From the NCBI GenBank assembly GCA_913064725.1, contig CAJYAI010000017.1, positions 1-47,902 of the forward strand: a DNA stretch of 47,902 bases, written 5' to 3'. The stretch is from an uncultured Alteromonadaceae bacterium (GTDB taxonomy: Bacteria > Pseudomonadota > Gammaproteobacteria > Pseudomonadales > Halieaceae). The notes beneath the pieces were generated by a model. The model saw nothing but the letters and a program-made list of their open reading frames with translations, had not been told where the DNA came from and did not search any database. Below, in pieces: positions 2,751-22,971 of the stretch (position 1 is the first letter of the stretch; each line of letters opens with the position of its first letter). Made by a program: the position numbers and the translations under genes.

Positions 2751-4418
2751 CTACCCAACTCGAATAGCGATCCTCAGAGTGTAGTCGTTACCAATGTCGG
2801 TTTCCGACCGCGACGTTACCGTCACCGCAGAGAATTTGAGACAGGCGATAAGCGCCTTTAATGACGTATTGTCGCCAGCAGATTGCGTAGACGTCTCTGA
2901 ATAATTTAGATCGCCCCACCCGACTCCCGAGTCCTGAATCCTAAGATACAGACCAGAATCAGACTCATCCTCCCCTTCTAACCACAATGTGACCTCAACC
3001 TGCCCTTCCTCAGTTCCCTGTACGGACAAGGAGATCGCTGCAAGAACTGCCGTAAATGCACTCGACGGAGCCTGCCGAGTATCTTGCAACACATCATCCG
3101 ACACCAAAAACCGTGTCTCAATCGGCGTATCCACAGAAGTCACCTCGAGTGCCATCTGCGCAAACTCAATAAGGTCTTTCAGATAAAATGATCTCTCTCG
3201 AGACGCCAACGCGTGCTCCGAAGCGGTGCGCTCGAGCATCAGGGTGTTAAGACTAAGATTGGCTTCCATAAATTCGCTGATGGCGATATCAAAATAACGC
3301 CGCTCGGACTCATGCATATCTTTTTGACGTATTGCATAGGTGAAGCGACTCAGCATGTCTAAGTGCGATGACAATACCTCATGAATCGACTCATTGATTG
3401 AGTCCTTCTCCGACAAAGACCGCATGAAGGAATTCATCAAACTCTGGCTCTTCAAGCGGTATCTGACGTAATTCAGCGTCGTCAGCAGTAATATAAAAGC
3501 AAGAAAGACAGGTACCAAGGAGCGCCAGACATTTGACGTCGCGGCACCCGCGGCCCGATAGGCTCGATAGGCATCGCTGGGCTGATAGAGACTATACGTG
3601 AACTCGTCGATACCCCGACTCGGATAGGTCACCTCGTAATTCAGGGCATTGCCGAGAGTTGCTTGGTCGCAGGCAATCCTACCCTCCCCTGTATCCCATA
3701 CCAGCTGACAGTCTCCTGAGCGAGCATCGACAATGATGATGCGCATGGGCGTTACACCACCCGCCATTTGCTGACCAATGAGGTCAAGACTGCGATGGAG
3801 ATCGGCAATCCCCACCCGAATGGAGACAAACCAAGAGGAAAACTCTTCATCACCCTTCGCGATCAACCGAGAACTAATGAACACTGGCTGAGGATTTGAA
3901 ATGCGTAGTAAGGAATCAGCCTCTAGCTGATAAAGCACGTTTTCCATGCGGAACAACTCGGCTGTATCGAGGTCAATATGTGCCAAAAGAAGGCTGTCAG
4001 AGACATCAACAGTTTCCGACGTTAGTGCGGTGGGATAGCGACCGTGCGCTAGGAGATCTCCCCCCGGCGTCCGCTCGATGAGGAATGCTTCCACAAAATC
4101 GTAGCGCGAGTTTTTCAGCGCAAAGCCGAGCTGTTCAAACGAGGACTCAAGCCAAGCGCGGCGGGCCTCATTCGTATCCATGGCATCTAGCTCAGAGAGC
4201 CCATGCAGTGCAAACTGAACGGCCGTTTGAACGTCGCGTCCGAGCATGTCCCTAATACCCTCGCGTCTACTGGCATCCACCTCGAACCCGCGTTCAAACT
4301 GCTCCAATGCCACTTTTTCCGCCGAAGACAGGCGCGTCGTGACGTCCGCTATTAAAATAACGAAGATCACGAAGGGCACTGCAATGTACCCTAGGCTTGT
4401 CCGATCAATAGCAAACAT
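2751..4418 (-). CDS. Membrane sensor protein resembling a degenerate histidine kinase
   Basis: A 555-residue protein with one N-terminal membrane segment (about 10-26), a large periplasmic sensor region (about 30-298) and a second membrane segment (about 300-318). The cytoplasmic part has a DHp-like helix (candidate His at 346 or 352 in SIHEVLSSHLDMLSRF) and a HATPase-like end with DSGVG (about 496-500), the ATP-lid D-x-G-x-G motif. The N-box segment (about 451-466) lacks the expected Asn, and no second glycine box is obvious, so ATP binding is doubtful. No response regulator lies next to it. It could be a pseudokinase sensor or partner of a remote regulator. Confidence 0.6.
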   Translation of the reverse strand: MFAIDRTSLGYIAVPFVIFVILIADVTTRLSSAEKVALEQFERGFEVDASRREGIRDMLGRDVQTAVQFALHGLSELDAMDTNEARRAWLESSFEQLGFALKNSRYDFVEAFLIERTPGGDLLAHGRYPTALTSETVDVSDSLLLAHIDLDTAELFRMENVLYQLEADSLLRISNPQPVFISSRLIAKGDEEFSSWFVSIRVGIADLHRSLDLIGQQMAGGVTPMRIIIVDARSGDCQLVWDTGEGRIACDQATLGNALNYEVTYPSRGIDEFTYSLYQPSDAYRAYRAAGAATSNVWRSLVPVFLAFILLLTTLNYVRYRLKSQSLMNSFMRSLSEKDSINESIHEVLSSHLDMLSRFTYAIRQKDMHESERRYFDIAISEFMEANLSLNTLMLERTASEHALASRERSFYLKDLIEFAQMALEVTSVDTPIETRFLVSDDVLQDTRQAPSSAFTAVLAAISLSVQGTEEGQVEVTLWLEGEDESDSGLYLRIQDSGVGWGDLNYSETSTQSAGDNTSLKALIACLKFSAVTVTSRSETDIGNDYTLRIAIRVG

Positions 4419-5480: not shown

Positions 5481-7739
5481 TTAGAAGCTCACACGCGCAT
5501 CGAGCCCATACGTTGCCGGGGCACCCCAATAACTTATGGTCCACAAACCAAAGGGAATGGTGTTCTCCCGATACTCTTCATCAAAAATATTCCGTCCCCA
5601 TGCTGAGACCTGCAAACGCGCAGTTTCACCAAGCGCGATATCACTCCAAGTAATTCGCGCATTGACCACGTCATAGGACGCTATTTGCCCGCTCACATTT
5701 TGATCACGATTGGCATAGACGACGTAATCATCTTTGAAGTTCCAGTCAACATGCGTATCCAGCCGGCCCCATGGGCCTGCCGCCATAGACCAGTCTAGAG
5801 CTACGCTGGCTGTGGTTTCGGGTGCATAGGGAAAGTCTTTTGAGCCTTTGACATCGACTCCCAGTTCGATGAACTCATCGTACTCTGCATCGAGTGTCCC
5901 AATATTGGCTGACAATCTTAGTGCGTCAGTGACCTGAGCCGTCAACTCAAGTTCTATTCCTTTGATCGTTGCGGCACCGGCGTTATCCACTGTTGATGCA
6001 GCACCGCCTGAGCCCTCTAGAAATACACTGAATTGCATATCGGATATGTCGTTCAGAAACGCGGCCGCATTCAACTGGATGCGATCATTCGCGAACCGCG
6101 CTTTGTAACCCAGCTCAATAGCCAGGACCTCTTCTGGATCAAAACTATTTATAAATGCATCAGCTGTCGGCGCCTCTCCATTGAAACCGCCCGCTTTCCA
6201 GCCTTGCGACACTTTAAGATAGCCCGTGCTTTCATCCGTCAGTGCGTAGCTGGCAACCGCTGTACCCGTGGTATTACTCCAAGAATCGTCGGCGCTGAGA
6301 TCGAATGCACCGACGCCACCGGTCGAGGCATTAGGGTGTGTGATGTATTGATCTTTGTCTTCATTGGTGTATCGCAAGCCAGCCGTCAGTGTCCAGCGCG
6401 GTGCAGAAGCAGGGGTAAAGTCTGCCTGCCCGTAGAGCGCATAAGAAGAGTTATCCAAGCCATATTCGTTGTTATCCGTGGGTGAACCGAATAACCCAAA
6501 GAACGAAATGGGATTGTCGATATCGCCCTCTTCCGTAAAATAATAAATACCGGCCACATAACTTAATGACTCGTCGCTACCACTCACCTGAATTTCTTGC
6601 GAAAACTGTTCGTAGCTGGCAAAGCGCGCAGAGTGGAAGAGATCCATATTTGTACCATCAATATCCAGCTGATCTCGCCAGTCCAGATCTCGTTGCGCAG
6701 TAATTGACGTGAGCGTCATGTCGCCCAAATCCCAGGTCATTGTGAAGCTGTGACCCGTCGTTTCAGACACCTCCTCGATCGCGTAGTCGTTGCTAATTTC
6801 ATCGGCACGACTGTTCCCGGAGTTAAGGTAGAGCGAGTGTAATCCAGCGAAATCTCCCAACCCAAAAAACCCGTAAACGGCTGGATCAACATTGGTCACC
6901 TGCCCCATATTTGGGGTGTTATCCGCAGAGCTGCTGTTGTAGTTGTAACGCCAGCTAAAGCGGTCCGTCACATCCGCCAGGATATCAACTCGAATTGCAT
7001 CAGTATCCAGTGATGACAGTTCCGATGTCGACACAGGAGCGACAAACGGATTGTTGCCGACAGTAGGGTCTAAAAAGACGTTGTCGTAAAAACCATCGCG
7101 CTCACGCGACGAGTACGCGACGGAGGTCCTGATCGCACCCAAGCCCTCTCCAACAGTGCCTAAGGCGCCGGTATCGAGTCGCGCCCTCATAGCGCGCGCG
7201 CTGTAATTTCCCGCACCGAACTCAAGATAGGCATCGAACTCCTCACCGGGCCTTCGGGTGATGAGATTAATCGCACCGGCAACAGTATTCTTACCGTAGA
7301 GTGTACCTTGTGGCCCCCGAAGCACTTCGACCCGCTCCAACTCGGCGACATCAAAAATGCCGCCTAGATTTTTGCCTATAAACACACCGTCAAGATACAT
7401 CCCCACCGTCGCTTCCCAGGTAATGGCCGGGTTGATTGTTGTCGAACCTCTGATTGCGAACGTCGCCGAGGTTGCTCCGCCCGGATTGGGTGCCACCTGC
7501 ACGTTGGGTACATATAAGCCAATATCTTGTACGTTATACATACCTCGCTGCGCCACGTCCGCGGCGCCGAAAGCTGTGACTGCCAGTGGCGCGTCTTGAA
7601 GTGACTGCTCTCGCTTCTGCGCTGTCACAATAACTTCTTCAAGTGCCGGCTGTGCAACAACGACAGAGGACACAACGACGGAGGATATGGTCGCACTAAG
7701 TGCAGCGGAAATAGTCAGTAGCTTGCTCGGTGTTTTCAT
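5481..7739 (-). CDS. TonB-dependent outer-membrane receptor
   Basis: 752 residues, the usual length for the family. There is an N-terminal signal peptide (about 1-29), a TonB box (EEVIVTAQKR, about 34-43), a plug domain (about 45-165, with the VLRGPQGTLYGKNTVAGAINL motif region) and a 22-strand-type beta-barrel ending in Phe (DARVSF). The plug and barrel style matches the large iron-complex/organic-substrate receptors abundant in marine gammaproteobacteria. No siderophore or polysaccharide genes adjoin it, so the ligand is unknown. A short perfect inverted repeat lies 25-40 bases upstream of the start. Confidence 0.95.
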   Translation of the reverse strand: MKTPSKLLTISAALSATISSVVVSSVVVAQPALEEVIVTAQKREQSLQDAPLAVTAFGAADVAQRGMYNVQDIGLYVPNVQVAPNPGGATSATFAIRGSTTINPAITWEATVGMYLDGVFIGKNLGGIFDVAELERVEVLRGPQGTLYGKNTVAGAINLITRRPGEEFDAYLEFGAGNYSARAMRARLDTGALGTVGEGLGAIRTSVAYSSRERDGFYDNVFLDPTVGNNPFVAPVSTSELSSLDTDAIRVDILADVTDRFSWRYNYNSSSADNTPNMGQVTNVDPAVYGFFGLGDFAGLHSLYLNSGNSRADEISNDYAIEEVSETTGHSFTMTWDLGDMTLTSITAQRDLDWRDQLDIDGTNMDLFHSARFASYEQFSQEIQVSGSDESLSYVAGIYYFTEEGDIDNPISFFGLFGSPTDNNEYGLDNSSYALYGQADFTPASAPRWTLTAGLRYTNEDKDQYITHPNASTGGVGAFDLSADDSWSNTTGTAVASYALTDESTGYLKVSQGWKAGGFNGEAPTADAFINSFDPEEVLAIELGYKARFANDRIQLNAAAFLNDISDMQFSVFLEGSGGAASTVDNAGAATIKGIELELTAQVTDALRLSANIGTLDAEYDEFIELGVDVKGSKDFPYAPETTASVALDWSMAAGPWGRLDTHVDWNFKDDYVVYANRDQNVSGQIASYDVVNARITWSDIALGETARLQVSAWGRNIFDEEYRENTIPFGLWTISYWGAPATYGLDARVSF

Positions 7740-8699: not shown

Positions 8700-10130
8700 A
8701 TGGACACTCTAGCCGCATCAATTGATGCCTTCATGGCCCCCCTAGCCAGCGCGCTCTCGGCTTTTGTTTTTTTCGCGGTTCCGCTCTTCGGCGAGCAGGT
8801 GCCTCTCGTTGTCATTTGGCTGGCAGTGGGCGCGCTATTTTTTACCGTTTATCTCCGCTTTATCAACGTACGCGGCCTTTGGCTAGCATTTCGTCACGTT
8901 CGAGGTGATTTTAAAGACCCGTCTGCCGAAGGTGAGATCAGTCATTTCAGGGCGCTCGCTACAGCTATCTCAGGTACCGTGGGAGTGGGTAATATTGGCG
9001 GAGTTGCCGTTGCCATCAGCCTAGGCGGCCCGGGAGCTGCCGTTTGGCTATTTGTCGCAGGATTCTTGTCGATGTCGACGAAGCTTATTGAGTGCACCCT
9101 CGGCGTTAAATATCGGCGGGTCCACGAGGATGGCACCGTATCAGGCGGCCCCATGTACTACTTAGACGCCTATTTCTCTGAGCGTAGCTGGCCCCGAGCA
9201 GGACGAGTGCTGGGCAGTATCTATGCCCTAGCTCTTGTCATTGGCTGCTTTGGCGTAGGTAATATGTTTCAGTCCAATCAGGCTTATCAGCAAATGCTAG
9301 TCATAACAGGCGGTCAGTCGAGTTTTCTTGCCGATTACTCGCTGCTATTTGGCATCGGCTTAGCCACGATTGTGGGTTTGGTCATCATCGGTGGCATCAC
9401 ATCAATTGCTCGCGTCGCAGCCTATATCGTTCCGTTTATGGCAGGTATCTATATTGTCGGCTGCCTCATCATTATCAGCATGAGCTGGCAAAATATACCG
9501 CTGGCTATCGGCACCGCGGTATCAGGCGCCTTTGGTACTGATGCCATGGCCGGCGGGGCGCTGGGCGCCATGATTATGGGGTTTCAACGTGCGCTCTTTT
9601 CCAACGAGGCGGGGCTTGGCTCAGCCTCCATCGCTCACTCGGCAGTAAAAACGCGAGAACCCGCGTCCGAGGGTTTGGTAGGCTTGCTGGAACCCTTTAT
9701 CGATACCGTAGTCGTCTTAACGCTCAGTTCGCTAGTCATACTCACTACGGCGATACCAAATGGCCTGATGGGCGGTGAGCTCTCGGGAATAGAAGTGACG
9801 TCGGCCGCATTTGGCTTTCACTTACCCTGGTCACCCTATCTAATTGCCTTTGCCGCCATCCTGTTTGCGTTCTCCACAGCACTCGCCTGGTCTTACTACG
9901 GGCTACAAGCCTGGAATTACCTGGTTGGCATAGGGCGCTGGCGCACACTGAGTTTCCAGTTAGTTTTTCTGACCTTCTTTGCCCTAGGATGTGTCCTCGA
10001 GTTGAGGGCAGTGCTGGATTTCTCGGACGCTATGATCTTCTTGATAGCGCTGCCAAACTTAATTGGTCTCTACCTATTCGCGCCACTGGTCAGACGAGAG
10101 GTAGAGACCTATCTTCGCGAGGTCAGCTAA
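8700..10130 (+). CDS. AGCS-family sodium:alanine/glycine symporter
   Basis: 476 residues, about 10-11 membrane helices. The family hallmark is present: the TAISGTVGVGNIGGVAVAIS region (about 87-106), and later GGPMYYLDAYF and FQRALFSNEAGLGSASIAHS. AGCS carriers take up alanine, glycine or related small amino acids with sodium, which suits a marine cell. Its TAA ends directly against the TAG of the convergent dioxygenase gene, with no spacer. Confidence 0.95.
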   Translation: MDTLAASIDAFMAPLASALSAFVFFAVPLFGEQVPLVVIWLAVGALFFTVYLRFINVRGLWLAFRHVRGDFKDPSAEGEISHFRALATAISGTVGVGNIGGVAVAISLGGPGAAVWLFVAGFLSMSTKLIECTLGVKYRRVHEDGTVSGGPMYYLDAYFSERSWPRAGRVLGSIYALALVIGCFGVGNMFQSNQAYQQMLVITGGQSSFLADYSLLFGIGLATIVGLVIIGGITSIARVAAYIVPFMAGIYIVGCLIIISMSWQNIPLAIGTAVSGAFGTDAMAGGALGAMIMGFQRALFSNEAGLGSASIAHSAVKTREPASEGLVGLLEPFIDTVVVLTLSSLVILTTAIPNGLMGGELSGIEVTSAAFGFHLPWSPYLIAFAAILFAFSTALAWSYYGLQAWNYLVGIGRWRTLSFQLVFLTFFALGCVLELRAVLDFSDAMIFLIALPNLIGLYLFAPLVRREVETYLREVS

Positions 10131-11669: not shown

Positions 11670-12431
11670 TCAAACATAAATGAACCAAGCCAAAAGGGTT
11701 CTAACACCCACCAGCAGGACGAGAATACCAGTCAGCTGCGCGACGCGCTGATGGGCAACACCTTCTATGACAAATCGCCCGCCGACAACACCGCCGATAG
11801 TGACTGCCATCAGCAGTGGTGCCCCTACTGAAATACCCATGAGGACCGCATCAGTGCCCATTTTTAGCGCCTGTCCGGCGAGACCACTTAACGAATTGAT
11901 CAAAATAAAAAAGCTGCACAGCGCTGCGATCGTTTTAGCAGAGGCCCACCGCAAGTGATGTAATACGGGCGCGAGAAAAATACCGCCGCCGATACCAACC
12001 ATCCCAGACACGAAGCCAAGTCCGCCTCCGATGATACTGGCTAGTCGCGATGACTGGGGAAACGACTCAGACTCATCCGGCGCGCGACGCAATAGCAGGC
12101 TGATTGCAGCGCCGATCAAACAAACGCCCAGTAGAAAAAAATAGACGCTGGCAGTGATCGAGATCAGGCCGCCGATGAATGCCATAGGAACAGAGGTCAC
12201 AAAAAAGGGAGCTGATGTCCGCCAATCGAAGTTCCTGCGATACACCGCTAGATAACTGCCAACCGCGACTACAGCGATATTACAGGGCAATGCAATGAGA
12301 GGGATAAGCTCAGCGGGCTGCCCACTCAATGCAAGTAAGGCGATGTAAGTAGAGCCACCGCCAAAACCGACAGCCGAATAGAGCGTGGCCACAATGAAAA
12401 AAGCAAATGCAAGCATGACGGTGATGATCAC
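11670..12431 (-). CDS. TauE/SafE-family membrane permease
   Basis: 253 residues with about eight hydrophobic helices and the two family repeats, each with its glycine motif: SAVGFGGGSTYIALL (about 19-33) and SGMVGIGGGIFLAP (about 140-153). The family includes exporters of sulfite and organosulfur anions. A GTG at 12431 opens the longest frame; ATG 12416 is an alternative. The gene begins 90 bp after the glucosylglycerate operon on the same strand. Confidence 0.9.
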   Translation of the reverse strand: MIITVMLAFAFFIVATLYSAVGFGGGSTYIALLALSGQPAELIPLIALPCNIAVVAVGSYLAVYRRNFDWRTSAPFFVTSVPMAFIGGLISITASVYFFLLGVCLIGAAISLLLRRAPDESESFPQSSRLASIIGGGLGFVSGMVGIGGGIFLAPVLHHLRWASAKTIAALCSFFILINSLSGLAGQALKMGTDAVLMGISVGAPLLMAVTIGGVVGGRFVIEGVAHQRVAQLTGILVLLVGVRTLLAWFIYV

Positions 12432-12521: not shown

Positions 12522-14282
12522 TTACAAGGTCAGGTTCGCCAGCCAAATCGCCTGATACGGCTCAAACGTCAACATCGGGTCATCACCATCAAGGTCCACC
12601 GAGGAGCCACTAATCAAATCGCTCCACGTATTGTTACCGACCAAATTGAGCGACGCCAACGCTACATGTGTAACAGTCCGCGTAACATTGTAAAGGCAAA
12701 ATATACTTTGCCTGCGATCTTGGCTTTGCCGCCAGAAACCAAATACGGATCGTCCGCAGTTAAGCGTGTACTGAGTGGCATTAGGATGAAATGCCGGCTG
12801 CTGCTGACGAATTGCAATCAGTGCTTTCAACGCTGACAGACAGTTTGCATGCGGACTGCGCTGATTGTTAAGTGCCACTGACAGGTCCTCAGCATTCCAC
12901 TGATGGCGATTAATCGCACGATTGTGCCCAGTGTTCTTCACCCGTGCCATGTCGTTCGGCGTCGCCAAGAAACTGTGAATATAAATGGCTGGTATCCCTT
13001 CCAGCCCCAATAAGACCGCATGTGCCAGCACCATCCGCTGCAGAGTCATATCGACGGGCTCATTCGCATCGCGAAACGCATCGAACAACGAGATGTTGAC
13101 CTCATAAACACTGCGCTCGCCGCCCGCTTGCTCACGCCAAGACAGCAGCGCACCATTGTGCTGCAACCGGTCAATCATCGAATTTAACTCGCCATCACTG
13201 AGCAAGCCCTCAACAGGCCGAAGGCCTATCCCATCGTGCGACGCTAAAAAATTGAAGTAAGTCGTGCCCAAAATAGCGGGCGGCATGCTCATGAGCCAGC
13301 GAGTCAGTCTTGAGCAATCAGCCTCTATTAGGGTGTGCACTAACAGTGGCGGTAAAGCAAAGTTATAAATGCAGTGAGCCTCATCGCGCTGACCAAAGTA
13401 GGCGAGATTCTCGATATTAGGGACGTTCGTCTCAGTAATGATGATGGCGCCAGGCTGAACCGCCTCGATGAGTGCACGTAGCAATCGAACTAAGTCATGC
13501 GCCTCCGGCAAATTAATGCAGGTTGTTCCGGAGCGTTTCCACGTAAAGGCGACAGCATCGAGCCTAAACACTCGGACACCTTGATCGAGGTACAAGCGAA
13601 TAATCCGGACAAACTCGAGTAATACGTCGGGATTAGAAAAATCGAAGTCCACCTGATCATGACTAAATGTGCACCAAACCTGTCGCTCACCGCCAATAGT
13701 CTGCACTGGCATGAGCAACTCGGTCGTTCGGGGTCTGACAACGCGGGAGGCATCAAACTGCTGATCCGGTGCAAAGAAGTAACCCTTTCCGGGATCGACT
13801 CCCCGCTTGAAATTATCAAACCAAGCGGAGCGACTCGAACAGTGGTTCAACACCAAATCAGCCATGAGTGTGTACTCGTTAGCCAGTGCGCTGACGTCCT
13901 CCCAGTTACCCAGTGCTTGATTAACAGACGAGTAATCCAGCACCGAAAAACCGTCATCCGACGTCCAGGGGAAAAAAGGTAAGACGTGCACCCAGGTCAC
14001 ACTGTCTTTCAACCACCGCCGGCAAAAATCAGAGAGGACTTTGAGGGGTTTTTCTCCCCCACCTAGAATTGAGTCACCGTAGGTAATCAAGGCAACGTCT
14101 CGCTGCGACCAGAGATCAGCAGACTCCCCCACCGTAGTGGCATTCTCGGTACTATTCGAGGCCGAAGCCGCGCCAATAGTGGTTACAAGTTGCGCTGCAA
14201 AGTCAGCGACACCAACAGCGCCCAATGTGTCCGCATACAGCTGAGTAGCGAGATACTTTATTCGACTTTTGTGGTCTGCCAC
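12522..14282 (-). CDS. GH13_18 phosphorylase, likely glucosylglycerate phosphorylase
   Basis: 586 residues of the sucrose-phosphorylase-like glycosidase family. Catalytic residues are in place: nucleophile D242 in RVFRLDAVAF, acid/base E284 in ITETNVPN, and D350 in LASHDGIG. The segment TETNVPNIENLAYFG followed by EAHCIYNFALPPL resembles the YcjM-type group, whose E. coli member is reported to phosphorolyse glucosylglycerate to glucose-1-phosphate and glycerate. The operon carries both synthesis genes for this compound, which supports that substrate over sucrose. Translation starts at a GTG overlapping the upstream stop by one base (TAGTG). Confidence 0.85.
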   Translation of the reverse strand: MADHKSRIKYLATQLYADTLGAVGVADFAAQLVTTIGAASASNSTENATTVGESADLWSQRDVALITYGDSILGGGEKPLKVLSDFCRRWLKDSVTWVHVLPFFPWTSDDGFSVLDYSSVNQALGNWEDVSALANEYTLMADLVLNHCSSRSAWFDNFKRGVDPGKGYFFAPDQQFDASRVVRPRTTELLMPVQTIGGERQVWCTFSHDQVDFDFSNPDVLLEFVRIIRLYLDQGVRVFRLDAVAFTWKRSGTTCINLPEAHDLVRLLRALIEAVQPGAIIITETNVPNIENLAYFGQRDEAHCIYNFALPPLLVHTLIEADCSRLTRWLMSMPPAILGTTYFNFLASHDGIGLRPVEGLLSDGELNSMIDRLQHNGALLSWREQAGGERSVYEVNISLFDAFRDANEPVDMTLQRMVLAHAVLLGLEGIPAIYIHSFLATPNDMARVKNTGHNRAINRHQWNAEDLSVALNNQRSPHANCLSALKALIAIRQQQPAFHPNATQYTLNCGRSVFGFWRQSQDRRQSIFCLYNVTRTVTHVALASLNLVGNNTWSDLISGSSVDLDGDDPMLTFEPYQAIWLANLTL

Positions 14283-15514
14283 TACCGCCCCCGAGCTGAA
14301 AACTCTTTATGGTCCTCCTCAACCGCATGCACCAATCGCTCGTAGATATCGGGCATGGCACTCACGACTCGAGACCAGGTTGGCATAAACGGCGCGTCGA
14401 GCGGCCGCTCCAGAAACTGCTTACCCGCCTCGAGAATATTGGTAGCAAAAAGCTCTACTGCTTGCTCTTCCGCATGCGTATCGAAGTCTAGGCCATTCAT
14501 CATAGCGTCTCGACGAAAGCTCTCAACATAATCCAGCGCCAACCGATAATAGGTCGCTTTTAGCGTTCTAAATGTTTCCTGGCTAAACACTTCACCCTGA
14601 ATGGCCAGTTTACGTATCAGCGACTTTGTAATATCTAGCGACATACGGGCAAGGCCACGTTGCATATCATTTGCCGAGAGGTCTTGGTGCTTATGATCGT
14701 AAAAATCCGTCAACTCCACCTGACAGATGCGATTGGTACTGTTGTTTCGATACATCTCCGATGCCACACCCATCTCGAGCCCCCAATCGCTGGGAACGCG
14801 CATATCAGTCAATAGGTCTCGACGAAAAGCAAACTCTCCCGCAAGCAAATAACGGAAACTATCGAGGTAATTCAAAAAGTCATTTTCACCCTTGACCCGC
14901 TTCATTGCGTGAATCAAAGGCCCAACCAATAGGCGGCAGGCGCGACCGTTCAACTTGTTATCGGCAACCCGAGCGTAATAACCCTTGCAAAATTCAAAGG
15001 AAAATTGCGGGTGCGCAACCGGATAGATCAAGCGTGCTAAAAGACTTCGATCATATGTGAGAATATCGCAATCATGTAAGGCCACAGCGTCCACACGAGA
15101 CGTTGCCAATATATAGCCCATGCAGTACCACACATTACGGCCTTTACCGGGCTCATGCGGAGCTAGTCCGCGGGTAGCCAACTCTGAATGAATAGCGCGA
15201 AGCCGAGGTCCGTCATGCCATAGCACGCGGTGTTGCTGAGGTAATTTAGAAAAGAACTGCAGGGCGGACTTGTAGTCATCCTCATCCGCCCTATCCAGTC
15301 CTACAACGATTTGAGAGAGGTAAGGCACCTTGGTCAGTTCTTCTCTGATTTTTGGCATTGCCGGTGTTTCGAGCTCTGAAAAGAGCGAGGGCAAAATGAG
15401 ACCTAGAGGTCGCGTATTTGAGAAATTGACGAGCTGTGCCTCGATTTCCTCAACAGCGGTATTGCGGAGGTTGTGCAATGTCGCGATGTACGGCGTTTGA
15501 TAAAAATCAGCCAT
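14282..15514 (-). CDS. gpgS: Glucosyl-3-phosphoglycerate synthase (GT81 type)
   Basis: About 410 residues. The family signs are PGKGRNVWYCMGY, which would hold the acceptor/donor loop, and the metal-binding D-C-D of ALHDCDILTY (about 148-157). The enzyme transfers glucose from an NDP-glucose to 3-phosphoglycerate, giving glucosyl-3-phosphoglycerate. The start at 15514 (TAATG overlap with the preceding stop, GGGAAG just upstream) is preferred to an ATG four codons earlier at 15526. It is the third gene of the operon, between phosphatase and phosphorylase. Mannosylglycerate-type synthases are a less likely alternative. Confidence 0.88.
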   Translation of the reverse strand: MADFYQTPYIATLHNLRNTAVEEIEAQLVNFSNTRPLGLILPSLFSELETPAMPKIREELTKVPYLSQIVVGLDRADEDDYKSALQFFSKLPQQHRVLWHDGPRLRAIHSELATRGLAPHEPGKGRNVWYCMGYILATSRVDAVALHDCDILTYDRSLLARLIYPVAHPQFSFEFCKGYYARVADNKLNGRACRLLVGPLIHAMKRVKGENDFLNYLDSFRYLLAGEFAFRRDLLTDMRVPSDWGLEMGVASEMYRNNSTNRICQVELTDFYDHKHQDLSANDMQRGLARMSLDITKSLIRKLAIQGEVFSQETFRTLKATYYRLALDYVESFRRDAMMNGLDFDTHAEEQAVELFATNILEAGKQFLERPLDAPFMPTWSRVVSAMPDIYERLVHAVEEDHKEFSARGR

Positions 15515-16344
15515 TAAACTTCCCATCCTATGCTAGTCAAAATATCCAATATGCCCTTCGCCCAGGCTTCGGGTCCTGCACTGTTAGATAGCCAGGTCGG
15601 ACCTGACCGAGTCAGCTCCAAAGCCCTACCTCGGTTATTGCGCATGAGTAACGCGTAATCAGCGGTCTCTAACAACTCTTTATCATTTGGCGCATCACCC
15701 GCTGCAATCGCGACCACATCCGGCGAGAGCTCTCGCTTTAACAAGGCCTGAAACCACTGTGCGGCAATACCCTTGTTGTTTGGACCCATAAGATGCACGA
15801 ACCGTCCGCCGGCCGATACACAAAAACCAATACGGGTGAGCACATCGCTAAATGCAGACAGAGCCTCCTCACTATCACGCCAGTCGAGCGTTTCAGAATA
15901 CAGCCGCTGCTGTGCCCGCCGCGCAGACGCTAGGTCGAGACCCGTGATATCCGCGACTTCGGAAGAGCGCATATCGGTGAGTGATTTAAATCGGTAAGAG
16001 CTGCCCAGATCGAGCGCCTCGAGAACATCACATAACGCTTGGCGCTTAACACCAAATTCTCGCACCCAAAAGCCGTCGAATAATTTACTACCCATTGGAC
16101 ACCGGATGTCAGCATCGACTGGCACATAGAGCGCGGCACCATTCTCAACGATAAATCCGTGAGTAAGATTCATGGAACTGCGGAATTCCACGACCTCACT
16201 GTAGGTCTTACTCGTTGCTGGAACGATGGGAATACCACCCGCGCCAACTCTTTCCAATACCGATCTCGCAGCTTCGGCGCTGTAGGTATCGTGGTCCAAA
16301 AGTGTTCCATCAAGATCGGTATAGATGACAGGTAAGACGCTCAC
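15514..16344 (-). CDS. HAD-IIB glucosyl-3-phosphoglycerate (or mannosyl-3-phosphoglycerate) phosphatase
   Basis: 276 residues of the HAD superfamily with the MPGP-type cap. Motif I is YTDLDGTLLDHD (nucleophile D10, general acid D12), motif II is in IPIVPATSKT, and motif IV is AAGDAPNDKELLE. It would dephosphorylate the product of the next gene to glucosylglycerate. Start is a GTG whose GTGA overlaps the glycerate-kinase stop by four bases, suggesting translational coupling. Confidence 0.88.
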   Translation of the reverse strand: MSVLPVIYTDLDGTLLDHDTYSAEAARSVLERVGAGGIPIVPATSKTYSEVVEFRSSMNLTHGFIVENGAALYVPVDADIRCPMGSKLFDGFWVREFGVKRQALCDVLEALDLGSSYRFKSLTDMRSSEVADITGLDLASARRAQQRLYSETLDWRDSEEALSAFSDVLTRIGFCVSAGGRFVHLMGPNNKGIAAQWFQALLKRELSPDVVAIAAGDAPNDKELLETADYALLMRNNRGRALELTRSGPTWLSNSAGPEAWAKGILDILTSIGWEV

Positions 16345-17255
16345 GATTGAAGTCGCTCATAGACAATACATCGATCGGCCTGCAACTCCCAAACGTCAGC
16401 ACTTAACTCCGGTAACACCTCGATAGCATGGTACGTGAGACGCCGGAAGCTCTCTATAAACTCGGCCACCTCTGACGCTGACATGCCCGTAACCGACGCG
16501 TGTCCGCCACCCATTTGCCTGCGCGCAACCAGCCGACTTTCTTGCTCTAAACGCCATGCAAAAACCGACTCAAAACTCGGCGATCTGAGCATACTCAATC
16601 GGTCGATACGATCGAAAATCTCAGCATAGGGGCCTTTCAACTGGTCATTGACATAGGCCCTCCACGTACCCCCGTTGTCATGCGTGAATTCAAAATTACT
16701 CACCGGAACTGACAAAGCAAGTTGACCTTGGGGAGGAATCCCAACACACCAACCCTCCAGCAAAATCACGGTAGGCTTTGCACTCATTTGGATTTTACGC
16801 ACCAAATTAGTGCGATCATCTGCCAGTTTGTCGAAGACAGGGAGCTCCACGGTAGTGCACTTAGGATCGATAAACGCCGCTAAGGCGTCGCGCAATCGAT
16901 CGCAATCGTGCGTCCCCGGCACACCCCGAGTAGCCAAAAGTGGATGGATCGACCTAGCCAGGTTTTGCCTCTCCATCCGCGTTAGGTAAAAGTCATCTAT
17001 CGATACGACATGGCAGTCAATATCGAGCACACTAGCCATCATCTGGCTTAAATAGTCGCTTAGCGTCGACTTGCCGGACCCCTGAGCACCATTGATCCCA
17101 ACGATCAAAGGCCGCTCGTGTACTACCGCAAGCTCAGATAAACGGCATGCGTAGGCATTGAAATAACGAGTCGCATTTGTTCGAAAAATATCACTGAGCC
17201 CTTCAGCTTGAGCGAAATTTTCGAGAAACTGCTTAAATTTGATGTTGCACCTCAC
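16341..17255 (-). CDS. D-glycerate kinase (GLYK-type P-loop kinase)
   Basis: 304 residues. The P-loop is GINGAQGSGKST (about 53-64), followed by VVSIDDFYLT, the THDCDRL region and ILLEGWCVG, the pattern of plant and fungal D-glycerate 3-kinases related to uridine/pantothenate kinases. It would phosphorylate glycerate, probably to 3-phosphoglycerate. Heading a glucosylglycerate operon, it can return glycerate released by the phosphorylase to the pool used by the synthase. Start is GTG 17255 with a weak ribosome binding site; a perfect palindrome abuts it. Confidence 0.85.
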   Translation of the reverse strand: MRCNIKFKQFLENFAQAEGLSDIFRTNATRYFNAYACRLSELAVVHERPLIVGINGAQGSGKSTLSDYLSQMMASVLDIDCHVVSIDDFYLTRMERQNLARSIHPLLATRGVPGTHDCDRLRDALAAFIDPKCTTVELPVFDKLADDRTNLVRKIQMSAKPTVILLEGWCVGIPPQGQLALSVPVSNFEFTHDNGGTWRAYVNDQLKGPYAEIFDRIDRLSMLRSPSFESVFAWRLEQESRLVARRQMGGGHASVTGMSASEVAEFIESFRRLTYHAIEVLPELSADVWELQADRCIVYERLQS

Positions 17256-17256
17256 C

Positions 17257-17273
17257 CGTTGTTATCAACAACG
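17257..17273. promoter_or_regulatory. Palindrome directly upstream of the glucosylglycerate operon
   Basis: A perfect inverted repeat CGTTGTT-ATC-AACAACG lies two bases upstream of the glycerate-kinase GTG. Its place at the head of an osmolyte operon would suit an operator of a LacI/TetR-type repressor or a short leader hairpin; no regulator gene adjoins it. Confidence 0.35.
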
Positions 17274-17449
17274 CAAAAAACACACGTTACAGCAACTTAG
17301 CGCAACGCAGACGTCTGACGCCTGGGCTAGAGCACTGCAAAGACCGTGCCTACTTTTCCTGGCGCGCCCAACGGCGCATTTTAGTTCACAGACAAAGATC
17401 GACCCTGTAGTCTCAAACCGGAATGCAGTCAGCTCAGGGACGTGATGCC

Positions 17450-18454
17450 ATGTTTAATAATAATGATTGGCTTGGACAGCTAAACGAGGACGTTATCGAT
17501 CCAGAGCGAGAAATTGTTGATCCACATCATCACTTGTGGCCCCAGCCTGCAATGGCATACAACATAGAAGAATTTCTTGCGGACACCTCAGATGGACATA
17601 ACGTCAGTCAAACTGTGTTTATGGAGTGCGGTGCCGCCTACCGGCCGGACGGCCCTGAGCACCTGCGCTGTGTGGGCGAAACGGAGTTTATTGCAAACGC
17701 GGCCAAGATAGCACGAGCGGTACCGTCGGCCTCTCAAATTGCGGGGATCATTGCCCACGCAGACTTGAGAGATGAGCAGCTAGAGGAGATATTGGATGCG
17801 CATGCAGAGGCCGCTCAGGGGTTGTTTAGAGGCATTCGTCATGCGGGGGCGGCAGCGGGTGATATCGAGGGCTTGACCATCCCGGGGCCGGCCGACCGTG
17901 ATCTCATGAAACAGGATACCTTTATACAGGGCCTCGGGCGTCTAGGTGAGAGGGGACTGACTTATGACACTTGGCTCTATCACTTTCAAATCACGGATTT
18001 TGCCCATCTCGCGAGTGAAATCCCGGGCACGACTATGATTCTGGATCACTTTGGCACACCACTTGGCGTGGGAAGCTTCGCCGCTGATCGAGATCGTATC
18101 TTTGAACAATGGCGGGAGGATATAGCGCGGGTAGCAGACTGCCCCAATGTATTTGCCAAATTAGGCGGTCTAGCGATGCCCGACAATGGGTTTGGATGGC
18201 ATGAAAGACAGCTGCCACCGTCTTCCGATGAATTTGTCGATGCGCAGTCGCGCTACTACCACCACGCCATAGCGTGCTTTGGACCAGAGCGCTGCATGTT
18301 TGAGAGTAATTTCCCTGTGGATCGTCTCTCAGTGGGGTATCGCGTGCTGTGGAATGCGCTGAAGAAAATGGCTGCCGATTATTCACCGGCAGAGCAAGAC
18401 CTTATGTTTTCAGGTGTCGCGCGTAAGGTGTATCGTCTTAGTCCGTCATCCTAG
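17450..18454 (+). CDS. Amidohydrolase_2-family metal-dependent hydrolase
   Basis: 334 residues of a TIM-barrel amidohydrolase (PF04909 type). REIVDPHHHLWP (about 20-31) carries the N-terminal metal-binding histidines, MILDHFGTPLG the barrel His, and MFESNFPVD the C-terminal Asp. Members act as lactonases or decarboxylases on dicarboxylic or aromatic acids. Start at ATG 17450 is chosen for the GGGA about 10 bases upstream; a codon at 17423 is in frame. The gene is coupled to the exported protein downstream by a TAGTG overlap. Confidence 0.88.
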   Translation: MFNNNDWLGQLNEDVIDPEREIVDPHHHLWPQPAMAYNIEEFLADTSDGHNVSQTVFMECGAAYRPDGPEHLRCVGETEFIANAAKIARAVPSASQIAGIIAHADLRDEQLEEILDAHAEAAQGLFRGIRHAGAAAGDIEGLTIPGPADRDLMKQDTFIQGLGRLGERGLTYDTWLYHFQITDFAHLASEIPGTTMILDHFGTPLGVGSFAADRDRIFEQWREDIARVADCPNVFAKLGGLAMPDNGFGWHERQLPPSSDEFVDAQSRYYHHAIACFGPERCMFESNFPVDRLSVGYRVLWNALKKMAADYSPAEQDLMFSGVARKVYRLSPSS

Positions 18455-19341
18455 TGATGCTGCTTCGACTCATCGCTATCATCGCCATCCTCGGCGCGGC
18501 CACAGTCAGCGGAGCAGACATCGATCCCCTCATCTCCCTCACTGACAGCGAAGAAGACTATAACTTAAGTGCGGGCACTGGTATCTATCGCGTGCACTAC
18601 AACTACACCGGTCAAGATTGGACCCATGCCGATGTTGCAGGCATCAAAGTAGAGACCAAGAAGCCCATAGCGATTTTACCAATGCAATACACTGAGCCAT
18701 CGGGGATGCAACCCGGCGCCATGGTTGCTGGCAGACATGTCGGTAAAGAGTGGAACACGATCACGCAACGCGCGATGGCGACGCGATTGACCGCTAGAGG
18801 CTTTTTTGTTTTGACGCCCAGCATTACGCAGTACGGAGAAAATCTGCAGGGGTTTCAAGCCTTAGAACACTTCATTGCGGGCGTGCACAAGGGAAACCGC
18901 CACGTCCAAACGATTCTTCTGACAGCAGACGCGGACACCCCAAATCCACAAAATCCGCTTCCCGGCCCACAAATGCTGGTGACCGGAACCCACCAGCGCA
19001 ATATAGCCTGGGAAAATACCCTACAGAATCACATGACGGACTTTTACCAATCGATAGGACTGACAAACCGCGGCGCTCGAGTCCGAGGTGGCTTGTCTGA
19101 TGTCGAAGGTTCCTCAGCTGCCTGGCACCCGTTAATTGAACGTGCGGCGGAGTACGGCCCTGAGGTGGCCATTTTGGAAGTTGCACGCGCCGTAGATATT
19201 GTCGCGCGGGCCGGCAGTATCAAACAGGGTGAGACTTGGGCCGCACCGCTATTTGATGCGATTGCAGACGCTATGCTTGCGTGGACGCGACGCAATGAGT
19301 TGGCGCCCCGCTCTCCCAATAACGATCTACCGGAAACTTAA
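18454..19341 (+). CDS. Exported protein of unknown function
   Basis: About 295 residues with a clear signal peptide (MLLRLIAIIAILGAATVSGA). I do not recognise the family. GRHVGKEWNTITQRAMATRL near residue 90 and AILEVARAVDIVARAG near residue 250 distantly recall the two Glu-bearing regions of N-acetylmuramoyl-L-alanine amidase (Amidase_3), but the expected G-H-G and later His are not clear. The GTG start overlaps the amidohydrolase stop by one base; ATG 18457 is an alternative. Coupling suggests a shared pathway. Confidence 0.6.
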   Translation: MMLLRLIAIIAILGAATVSGADIDPLISLTDSEEDYNLSAGTGIYRVHYNYTGQDWTHADVAGIKVETKKPIAILPMQYTEPSGMQPGAMVAGRHVGKEWNTITQRAMATRLTARGFFVLTPSITQYGENLQGFQALEHFIAGVHKGNRHVQTILLTADADTPNPQNPLPGPQMLVTGTHQRNIAWENTLQNHMTDFYQSIGLTNRGARVRGGLSDVEGSSAAWHPLIERAAEYGPEVAILEVARAVDIVARAGSIKQGETWAAPLFDAIADAMLAWTRRNELAPRSPNNDLPET

Positions 19342-19622: not shown

Positions 19623-20585
19623 CTACGAATCTGAGCCTCTCGGTCTCACCTCATAACCTCGCTCCTCTGGCTCATCGTCAACTATCTGAGCCGGAAAACC
19701 CGCGGCCAGCACACTCGCTCCGCAGGCTTCCTCTAACCGGCGAATGATATTAGGAGACCATTCTCGCTCACCAAACCGTGACTGCCCGTCTTCAAAGATG
19801 TCGATCAATTTAGGGGAGATCTCCAACGGCACACCAGCCTGATCGGCCATACTCTGAAATAAACCTATGTCTTTCAGCACTAGGTCCATCGTGAAGTTGA
19901 TATCGCGACTACCGTTTAAGATTACTTGGCTTTCTGTTTCATGAACGAAGGAATTACCCGACGATATTCGAATAGCCTCGTATACAGTAGCCAAATCTAG
20001 ATCCGCCTTACTCGCGGTTACCAAAGCCTCGCAAAGACTGACTAAATTGGCCGTAGCAAGATAGTTAGTCATTACCTTTATCTTAGAGGCGCTCCCTAGA
20101 GGGCCGCTATGGAGCACCCGGCGCCCAAGAATGGTCAGTAACGGTAAGACATCGTCGAATACCGATCGCTCACAACCGGCCAGAATAGCGATATTGCCCG
20201 TCGCTGCTCGATGACACCCACCCGAGACAGGACAATCAGCGGGACTCGCACCTCGGTCTTGTACGATCTTGCCAAGCCGCTGCACTTCAAGGTGATCGGT
20301 CGTGCTCATCTCTATCCAAATCTTGCCGGGACCTAGCCCAGCAATCACACCGTCATCGGCTTCCATGACCTCTGCGCAAGCCCTTGGGCTTGGCAAACAG
20401 GTGATAATTACATCTGACGCGCTCGCGAGTGCGACTGGAGAACTAGCCCACTGCGCGCCCTCTTCTAAAAAGGGCTGCGCTAGGGCTGGGTCCAGATCGC
20501 GCACGATAAGAGGCACCTTATTGCGGAGTAAACTTCCTGCCAGTTTTGAGCCAACGTTTCCTAGACCAATAAAACCTACAACCAC
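19623..20585 (-). CDS. 3-hydroxyisobutyrate-dehydrogenase-family oxidoreductase
   Basis: 320 residues. The NAD(P) Rossmann motif is FIGLGNVGSKLAG (about 5-17), the substrate-binding loop is DCPVSGG (about 117-123), and the catalytic Lys lies in SASKIKVMTNYL. The family oxidises beta-hydroxy acids such as 3-hydroxyisobutyrate and tartronate semialdehyde. It is divergent from the alcohol-dehydrogenase/enolase-superfamily pair with a 98-bp shared promoter region, so the three may serve one catabolic route for a hydroxy or sugar acid. Confidence 0.9.
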   Translation of the reverse strand: MVVGFIGLGNVGSKLAGSLLRNKVPLIVRDLDPALAQPFLEEGAQWASSPVALASASDVIITCLPSPRACAEVMEADDGVIAGLGPGKIWIEMSTTDHLEVQRLGKIVQDRGASPADCPVSGGCHRAATGNIAILAGCERSVFDDVLPLLTILGRRVLHSGPLGSASKIKVMTNYLATANLVSLCEALVTASKADLDLATVYEAIRISSGNSFVHETESQVILNGSRDINFTMDLVLKDIGLFQSMADQAGVPLEISPKLIDIFEDGQSRFGEREWSPNIIRRLEEACGASVLAAGFPAQIVDDEPEERGYEVRPRGSDS

Positions 20586-20683
20586 TGAGACCTCCCGCCG
20601 TTTTTATTGTAACTTCCATATCGCACGTCGCATGACGAGTGTGTCCGCAAAGCACTAAATTGTCGATCTGAGGAGAATAAAAA

Positions 20684-21763
20684 GTGAGAGCAGCCGTTTG
20701 TAGAACATTTGGCCAGCCCCTGACGATTGAAGAATTACATATTTCCGATCCAGGCCACGGCGAGGTTAAGGTCAAACTTACCGCCTGCGCGATCTGCCAC
20801 AGCGATATCACGCTCGCCACTGGAGGCTGGGGGGGTGATCTACCGGCAGTCTATGGACATGAAGCTGCTGGCATTGTCGTCTCAGTAGGACCCGGTGTCA
20901 TTGGATTACAAAGTGGTGACCATGTGGTGGTGACACTCATACGTTCATGCGGTCATTGCCACTTTTGTACTCAGGCCATTGAGACCCAATGCGATAACAA
21001 CTTCAACTTAGATCAGCAAAGCCCACTATCGGATAAAAAGGGGCAGACTATTGTCCAGGGGCTCAACAGCGGGGCCTTTGCGGAGCAGGTGGTGGTAGAG
21101 CAAAGTCAGGTTTGCGCTATTCCTCACGATATCCCCCTCGATGTCGCATGTATTTTAGCCTGTGGCGTCTTGACAGGCTTTGGTGCGGTCACGAATACAG
21201 TCACAATCAAGCCTGCCAGTACGGTCGCCATTGTCGGCTGCGGCGGCGTGGGCATAAATAGCATTCAGGGAGCAGTCCACTCCGGCGCGGCGCGCATCAT
21301 TGCGCTCGACTTATTGGACGAAAAACTGACATTGGCACACCAGTTCGGTGCCACGCATTCCGTTAACAGCGGGCGGCCAAACTGTGTCGAGCAAGTCCTA
21401 GCACTTACCGATGGCCGAGGTGTTGACTACGTCTTCGTGACTGTTGGTGTAAAAGCCGCGATAGAGCAGTCGCTGTCTCTCCTCGCCAAATCGGGCACAG
21501 CCGTTATCGTAGGCATGCCCGCATCTGGCGTGCTGGCAGAGTTCGACCCAGCTGCGCTTGCGGCTAACGGTCAATCTCTGATCGGCTCAAAAATGGGGTC
21601 AGCCTCCGTCAAACGCGATATTCCAAAGCTTGCGGCTCTGTACCAATCGGGAGACTTAAGGCTGGATGAATTAATCAGTAAGCGTTACGTACTCGACGAA
21701 ATCAACGAGGCAATTGCATCAGTCAAACGCGGCGAAGCACTGCGTAACGTGGTCATTTTTTGA
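20684..21763 (+). CDS. Zinc-dependent alcohol dehydrogenase (MDR family)
   Basis: 359 residues. Catalytic zinc ligands are C38 (ICHSD) and H59-E60 (YGHEAAG), and a third lies in LACGVLTGF. The structural zinc site is complete: C89, C92, C95 and C103. The coenzyme fold has IVGCGGVGINSIQGA, and the layout resembles glutathione-dependent formaldehyde and aryl-alcohol dehydrogenases. The start is GTG 20684 with GAGGAG about eight bases upstream. The stop overlaps the next gene's ATG (TGATG). Confidence 0.92.
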   Translation: MRAAVCRTFGQPLTIEELHISDPGHGEVKVKLTACAICHSDITLATGGWGGDLPAVYGHEAAGIVVSVGPGVIGLQSGDHVVVTLIRSCGHCHFCTQAIETQCDNNFNLDQQSPLSDKKGQTIVQGLNSGAFAEQVVVEQSQVCAIPHDIPLDVACILACGVLTGFGAVTNTVTIKPASTVAIVGCGGVGINSIQGAVHSGAARIIALDLLDEKLTLAHQFGATHSVNSGRPNCVEQVLALTDGRGVDYVFVTVGVKAAIEQSLSLLAKSGTAVIVGMPASGVLAEFDPAALAANGQSLIGSKMGSASVKRDIPKLAALYQSGDLRLDELISKRYVLDEINEAIASVKRGEALRNVVIF

Positions 21764-22971
21764 TGATTATCAAAGACTTTGAGACCTTTGTTGTAGGTAA
21801 CCCACCACCCCGGTTTGGTGGGCGATATTTTATATTTGTTAAGCTCGTCACTGACACCGGGATAATAGGCTACGGCGAAGTCTACTGCGCCACGTTTAGC
21901 GCCCATACAGTAGAGGCGATGCTTAAAGACACAGCTGAGCGCTACGTTGTCGGGCATGACCCGTTTCACATTGAACGACTATGGCGACGTGTCTATGGGG
22001 CCGGATACACGCAGCGTCCAGATGTATCGTTAGTCAGTATTCTCTCCGCACTTGAGATGGCCTGCTGGGATATTATTGGTAAGGCCTGCGACAAGCCCGT
22101 ATTTGAATTGCTGGGCGGACAAGTTCATGAGCGCCTGCGTAGCTATACCTATATTTACCCGTCAAAAGGCGATGTTTATCCCGACAAGTCGGACGATGAT
22201 CATGTCTATGTCAACCCCGACAGAGCCGCAGAGCGCGCACTTGATTACGTCGCACAGGGCTTCACAGCGGTCAAATTTGATCCCGCGGGTCCCTACACCG
22301 TGTTTGATGGGGGCATGCCGACGGGCGAAGAGTTGGATCGGTCAGAGGCTTTCACACGACGAATTCGGGAGGCAGTTGGCGGCGAGATTGATCTACTGTT
22401 TGGAACCCATGGACAGTTCTCGCCCGCTGGCGCTATACGGCTAGCTAAACGGCTTGAGCCACTTGATCCACTGTGGTTTGAGGAGCCAGTTCCGCCCGAC
22501 AATATCCAGGCCATGGCGCGAGTCGCTGGCAGCACTTCCATACCGATTGCTACCGGTGAGCGACTCTGCACTAAATACGAATTTGCACAGGTATTGCAGG
22601 ATAACGCCGCATCGATCCTACAACTCAATCTCGGGCGAGTGGGCGGCTTGTTAGAGGCCAAAAAAATTGCAGCCTTAGCGGAAGTGCACCACGCTCAACT
22701 AGCACCACACATGTATTGTGGACCTATCGTGGGTGCGGCCAATATCCAGCTCGCCACCTGCTCCCCAAACTTTTTGATTTTGGAAGGCATAGAGAGGTGG
22801 ACGGGCTTCCAAGCTGAATTGCTCGATAAGCCCGTGACATGGCAGGACGGCTACGTCATCCCCTCCTCGCAACCTGGACTGGGCGTCTCGCTCAATGAGG
22901 CCGTGGCCAGGGCTCACCCGTGGGAGGGAAACGATCTGCACCTTGAAATGGGGCAAGATCCCGTCAGGTAA
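21763..22971 (+). CDS. Enolase-superfamily dehydratase/cycloisomerase (mandelate racemase/muconate lactonizing type)
   Basis: 402 residues with the capping domain and TIM barrel. Metal-ligand Glu residues are in WFEEPVPP and ATGERL, and a catalytic-type His is in LAPHMYCGP. At the third barrel strand, where related galactonate dehydratases read D-x-H, this protein reads FGTHGQ, so the Asp ligand appears replaced by Gly. Sugar-acid dehydratases and 3,6-anhydrogalactonate cycloisomerase belong to this broad group; the substrate is not fixed. The start is ATG 21763, coupled to the dehydrogenase. Confidence 0.88.
   Translation: MIIKDFETFVVGNPPPRFGGRYFIFVKLVTDTGIIGYGEVYCATFSAHTVEAMLKDTAERYVVGHDPFHIERLWRRVYGAGYTQRPDVSLVSILSALEMACWDIIGKACDKPVFELLGGQVHERLRSYTYIYPSKGDVYPDKSDDDHVYVNPDRAAERALDYVAQGFTAVKFDPAGPYTVFDGGMPTGEELDRSEAFTRRIREAVGGEIDLLFGTHGQFSPAGAIRLAKRLEPLDPLWFEEPVPPDNIQAMARVAGSTSIPIATGERLCTKYEFAQVLQDNAASILQLNLGRVGGLLEAKKIAALAEVHHAQLAPHMYCGPIVGAANIQLATCSPNFLILEGIERWTGFQAELLDKPVTWQDGYVIPSSQPGLGVSLNEAVARAHPWEGNDLHLEMGQDPVR

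Follow-up and report, generated by a model that had tools for sequence, protein, structure and literature searches.

A 47,902-nucleotide stretch of DNA from an uncultured gammaproteobacterium (hereafter the window), located on contig C17 in an assembly of 2.63 Mb with 113 contigs and 98.3% completeness, carries a block of four overlapping open reading frames (ORFs) on the minus strand, running from position 17255 to 12522. We read this block as a glucosylglycerate synthesis, breakdown and recycling operon of a Halieaceae-like and probably marine bacterium, and the sequence evidence leads us to put the probability of this reading at roughly 0.87. In the proposed pathway, a synthase (GpgS) would join the glucose of a nucleoside diphosphate (NDP)-glucose to 3-phosphoglycerate and a phosphatase (GpgP) would remove the phosphate to yield 2-O-alpha-glucosylglycerate, a charged compatible solute. 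A phosphorylase (GGaP) would then convert glucosylglycerate and phosphate into alpha-glucose-1-phosphate and D-glycerate, and a kinase (GlyK) would use ATP to return D-glycerate to 3-phosphoglycerate. The arrangement of the block is not due to chance, because many genera share its gene order.

Four overlapping genes and their predicted products

The first gene, glyK (16341..17255; 304 aa), encodes a P-loop kinase of the D-glycerate 3-kinase (GLYK) type. It is followed by gpgP (15514..16344; 276 aa) for an MPGP-family HAD-IIB phosphatase, the putative glucosyl-3-phosphoglycerate phosphatase; by gpgS (14282..15526) for a GpgS-type (GT81) glucosyl-3-phosphoglycerate synthase, with 414 aa in the longest ORF and 410 aa from the second ATG (15514); and by the last gene, ggaP (12522..14282; 586 aa), for a predicted GH13_18 glucosylglycerate phosphorylase. 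An original prediction, made from the sequence, had proposed four overlapping minus-strand genes here, and all four ORFs were found in place. The overlaps it had named could likewise be read directly: GTGA, shared over 4 bases by glyK and gpgP; TAATG (TTTAATGG) between gpgP and gpgS, provided that the synthase starts at its second ATG; and TAGTG, a 1-base overlap, between gpgS and ggaP. With respect to this start, the match to relatives sets in at residue 4 or 5 of the query for 39 of 80 loci, but at residue 1 for the four closest ones.

These overlaps alone suggest that the four genes form a single transcript, because a scan for promoters and terminators gave no signal above shuffled sequences, with counts at most one standard deviation away (3 vs 4.5; 6 vs 5.7). 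A 167-base gap (17256..17422), the presumed site of the operon promoter, separates the block from a divergent amidohydrolase gene. In this gap, the scan, which was at chance level overall, returned no promoter-like site and one terminator-like hairpin on the plus strand (17364-17377). Base composition does not suggest a recent transfer of the operon, the G+C content being 0.50-0.52 in the four genes and 0.53-0.54 in four neighbours.

The family assignments of the original prediction hold by sequence for all four proteins, for the kinase and the phosphorylase also by predicted fold class, and the chemistry it proposed would follow from these established families. GpgS aligned over residues 7-409 with positions 2-402 of the 402-position profile NF040724 (E 1.1e-108), scoring 363.7 bits where the equivalog cut-off is 700, and matched the solved GpgS 7p5l weakly (E 1.1e-5). 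The motifs HD[CAS]D and GKG[RL]N, which we take to be the DxD and GKG motifs of GT81 GpgS enzymes, were present in 79/79 and 78/79 synthase homologues, respectively, and WG[LI]E was also common to the relatives. Among named relatives, the closest synthases (93% identical in their best segment) belong to three loci bearing the title Halieaceae bacterium and one entitled Gammaproteobacteria bacterium; together with shared flanking genes, this gene makes a Halieaceae gammaproteobacterium the probable host.

GpgP scored above the TIGR01486 cut-off (206.1 vs 164.75 bits) and below the equivalog cut-off of TIGR02461, the mannosyl-3-phosphoglycerate phosphatase model (164.6 vs 244.35 bits). Its translation contains DLDGT and GDAPND; among 79 phosphatase homologues, all carried GD..ND and 55 the pattern D.DGT as written, with DMDGS in one homologue outside it (L063). 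A search of the window genome for a GT55 mannosyl-3-phosphoglycerate synthase (PF09488) returned no match, the control in Thermus composti being positive. We therefore rejected a mannosylglycerate pathway and took the partner of GpgP to be the glucosyl synthase.

GGaP matched PF00128, and its best solved relatives by sequence were sucrose and glucosylglycerol phosphorylases. Alignment to YcjM of Escherichia coli, annotated as a glucosylglycerate phosphorylase and listed among characterised enzymes in a portion of PMC8950772, gave 41% identity over 526 residues (413 bits). Signatures of this specificity, as laid out in sections of PMC7178133, are (T/S)ETN at strand 5 and a Glu in loop A, where most other members have Gln (a contrast also drawn in a part of PMC6720575). 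In an alignment of 16 sequences including that of the window, T283-E284-T285-N286, Y393-E394, D242 and D350 of GGaP were invariant. Across the 80 named loci, all 77 complete homologues (three cut ones were left out) carried both [TS]ETN and YE, the latter as YE[VILM][NS]; one of the 77 also has a YQ pattern somewhere. The predicted fold alone does not appear to settle the specificity: a Foldseek search with the predicted model, which has low-confidence stretches at 42-54 and 105-116, ranked amylosucrases first. Together, the TETN motif and the loop-A Glu point to a glucosylglycerate phosphorylase, and they make it unlikely that the enzyme acts on sucrose or glucosylglycerol—the outcome that the original prediction had named as its refutation. 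GGaP is also the single PF00128 protein found in the assembly, which thus showed no further GH13 member, for instance a glycogen branching enzyme.

GlyK, as a D-glycerate 3-kinase, is the weakest of the four assignments. No family model exceeded its own cut-off, and the closest matches by sequence and by fold, the solved D-glycerate 3-kinases 6ckg (the best) and 7xpc, share 20-26% identity with it. Its product is presumably 3- rather than 2-phosphoglycerate. Of three kinds of glycerate kinase sought in the window genome, GlyK was the sole one detected: neither PF02595 (GK1) nor PF13660 gave a match, with positive controls for both. No gene of the block diverges faster than the kinase, which shares 62% identity with a Halieaceae relative (L031) as compared to 93% for the synthase, 83% for the phosphatase and 73% for the phosphorylase; in the kinase tree, a branch of 1.35 changes per column leads to its clade.

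Gene order and the fate of the kinase in relatives

The original prediction had proposed a survey of gene order in related genomes. We compared 110 loci picked as best synthase matches rather than drawn at random, 80 of them named and 30 unnamed (the window itself, L001, among the latter) with flanks of only 1.5 kb. The order kinase-phosphatase-synthase-phosphorylase was found in 80/110 and phosphatase-synthase-phosphorylase in 29/110, six of which may hide a kinase beyond short flanks; the remaining locus is truncated by the end of its contig. Within the named set of 80, the four-gene order is seen in 56 loci, a nearby kinase is missing from 23 and one locus is cut. A broader draw of 398 genomes from the phylum yielded 50 with the synthase. 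Of 29 short loci from this draw, which stem partly from genomes also present in the earlier sample, 16 hold all four genes in order, seven phosphatase-synthase-phosphorylase (with the phosphorylase inverted in two, L134 and L139) and one has the phosphorylase first, while five show neither phosphorylase nor kinase within 1.5 kb.

At the level of the order, 293 genomes divided into 107 with kinase and synthase, 39 with the synthase only, 42 with the kinase only and 105 with neither, where kinase presence required an E value below 1e-20 and nine genomes with weaker matches were scored as absent. Of 60 genomes that scored high for the synthase, 43 have the kinase within 4 kb and 12 have it elsewhere; five had no strong place among those listed.

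We searched the genomes of 22 of the 23 named loci without a nearby kinase. A GLYK homologue occurred elsewhere (E below 1e-50) in 13, a fourteenth match (E 1.8e-4) being left uncounted, and GK1 occurred in eight. One genome has both, so that one or the other was present in 20/22; the genomes of L054 and L056 have neither. Conversely, GK1 was not found in any of 49 searched genomes with an operonic kinase. Pooled, GK1 was detected in 1/62 genomes with GLYK and in 7/9 without it (Fisher p 2e-7, uncorrected for relatedness), the seven comprising two records each of Vibrio, Psychromonas and Shewanella plus one of Verrucomicrobiales; this near-exclusion may in part reflect lineage habits. The replacement of GLYK by the unrelated GK1 is fair evidence that the operonic kinase phosphorylates glycerate. 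GK1 enzymes yield mostly 2-phosphoglycerate, and closure of the loop exactly at 3-phosphoglycerate therefore need not be universal.

In five of the 56 named kinase-bearing loci (L048, L063, L073, L097 and L106; three Methylophaga, Alteromonadaceae M269 and Pseudoalteromonas haloplanktis), kinase and phosphatase are fused into a single open frame of 580-594 aa that lies upstream of the synthase gene. On the kinase tree, which has 56 rows, the fused label takes three changes to explain, possibly one gain plus two losses; at least two are imposed by well-supported branches, and a single change sufficed in 0% of 200 bootstrap trees. Six further kinase matches had open frames of 578-672 residues. 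Our search of open-licence full texts returned no report of a kinase-phosphatase fusion in a glucosylglycerate context. Fusions and kinase exchange are small additions to a known system, lending modest comparative support to glycerate salvage as a part of the pathway.

Probable turnover of an osmolyte and competing explanations

The original prediction had called the loop self-contained. This is too strong, because a pyrophosphorylase encoded outside the block has to regenerate NDP-glucose from glucose-1-phosphate: the window genome holds five PF00483 matches (candidate pyrophosphorylases), none of them inside the window. Nor was the proposed storage/osmolyte cycle, as opposed to a one-way pathway, borne out. 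Active together and unregulated, the four enzymes would only spend ATP and nucleoside triphosphate, so that their co-transcription would argue for regulated turnover and, taken by itself, not for storage. With regard to physiology, which we infer together with the four reactions, turnover of an osmolyte explains the block more economically than storage, the compound probably being built up on balance under salt or low nitrogen and recovered upon relief. Glucosylglycerate might also be the main glucose-containing reserve of this genome. A search of the window genome for ectoine synthase returned no match, but neither did its control, and it therefore carries no information on other osmolytes.

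The position of the kinase at the head of the block, which the original prediction had held in favour of a cycle, would fit equally well a supply of external or metabolic D-glycerate through the kinase into osmolyte synthesis, the reversible phosphorylase serving as an overflow valve or second synthetic route. Genes near the block lend some colour to this explanation: a tartronate-semialdehyde-reductase-like protein (19623-20585) and a galactonate/gluconate-dehydratase-like protein (21760-22971) are encoded there, along with a zinc alcohol dehydrogenase within the same interval (19623-22971), each of the three scoring below its equivalog cut-off. Known tartronate-semialdehyde reductases form D-glycerate. 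The 42 genomes with a kinase and no synthase are in keeping with such feeding, and phosphorolysis by such enzymes is reversible according to a part of PMC11009771. However, divergent genes at 17423-19341 cut the sugar-acid genes off from the operon, and genomes with the operon keep the kinase near or elsewhere, swap it for GK1 or fuse it with the phosphatase. We thus regard a D-glycerate feed as possible, though clearly less probable than recycling.

The fusions in several lineages, along with the translational coupling in the window, could alternatively indicate that kinase and phosphatase form a complex passing substrate between the two arms, with continuous making and breaking setting the glucosylglycerate pool; we consider this improbable. 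Slightly more doubtful still is that phosphorylase and kinase mainly catabolise glucosylglycerate from other microbes, such as picocyanobacteria. An exchange of the compound between Alteromonas and Prochlorococcus is proposed in a section of PMC11631117, directed towards Prochlorococcus, but the operon of the window lacks a transporter gene and the synthetic genes sit inside the same operon as the phosphorylase and kinase. Least probable is a GH13 enzyme acting as a sucrose, sucrose-6-phosphate or glucosylglycerol phosphorylase in a coincidental cluster: the solved chains nearest in sequence have two of these activities, yet they score at most 188 bits, far below YcjM (albeit with different scoring programs), both glucosylglycerate signatures are present, and the phosphorylase adjoins the synthase in 110/110 loci, though not in five of the 29 short loci of the broader draw.

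Of the 26 ORFs of at least 200 aa in the window, 24 were scanned against Pfam and a further one against NCBIfam. Transport-type matches were a Na/alanine symporter (8700-10130), a TonB receptor (5481-7739) and a TauE-type exporter (11670-12431), the last encoded downstream of the operon on the same strand. A 555-aa ORF (2751-4418) had no Pfam or NCBIfam match at E 0.001. One related locus (L032, 11828-13239) contains about 1.3 kb extra between its TauE-like and DUF2237 genes as compared to another (L033).

Comparison with known glucosylglycerate systems

The enzymes and their clustering have been described before, and the window is an ordinary, well-preserved example. GGaP shares its signatures with the GH13_18 glucosylglycerate phosphorylases (EC 2.4.1.352) of Meiothermus silvanus, Spirochaeta thermophila and E. 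coli (YcjM), and the same motifs are applied to another marine bacterium in a part of PMC10608839. As stated in passages of a 2020 review (PMC7178133), such phosphorylases frequently neighbour glycerate kinase, GpgS or GpgP genes—as in the window—and it was this context that revealed their specificity. According to the same passages, many producers have no other possible sink known than the phosphorylase, its metabolic function being unconfirmed as of 2020. A compact operon found in many gammaproteobacteria, including named cultured strains, offers a convenient system for testing that function.

The two-step GpgS/GpgP route uses the same synthase and phosphatase families, to which the window adds a phosphorylase and a kinase. 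Around E. coli ycjM, no GpgS or GpgP is annotated in the surrounding 13 kb, whereas here the four genes overlap in one block. The solved D-glycerate 3-kinases differ from their distant relative GlyK, which is bacterial, lies within an osmolyte operon and is fused in some relatives. In Prochlorococcus NATL2A, an operon described in a section of PMC11631117 combines the synthesis of glucosylglycerate with its return to glucose-1-phosphate and 3-phosphoglycerate, much as proposed for the window; unlike the block studied here, it also includes a putative transporter gene.

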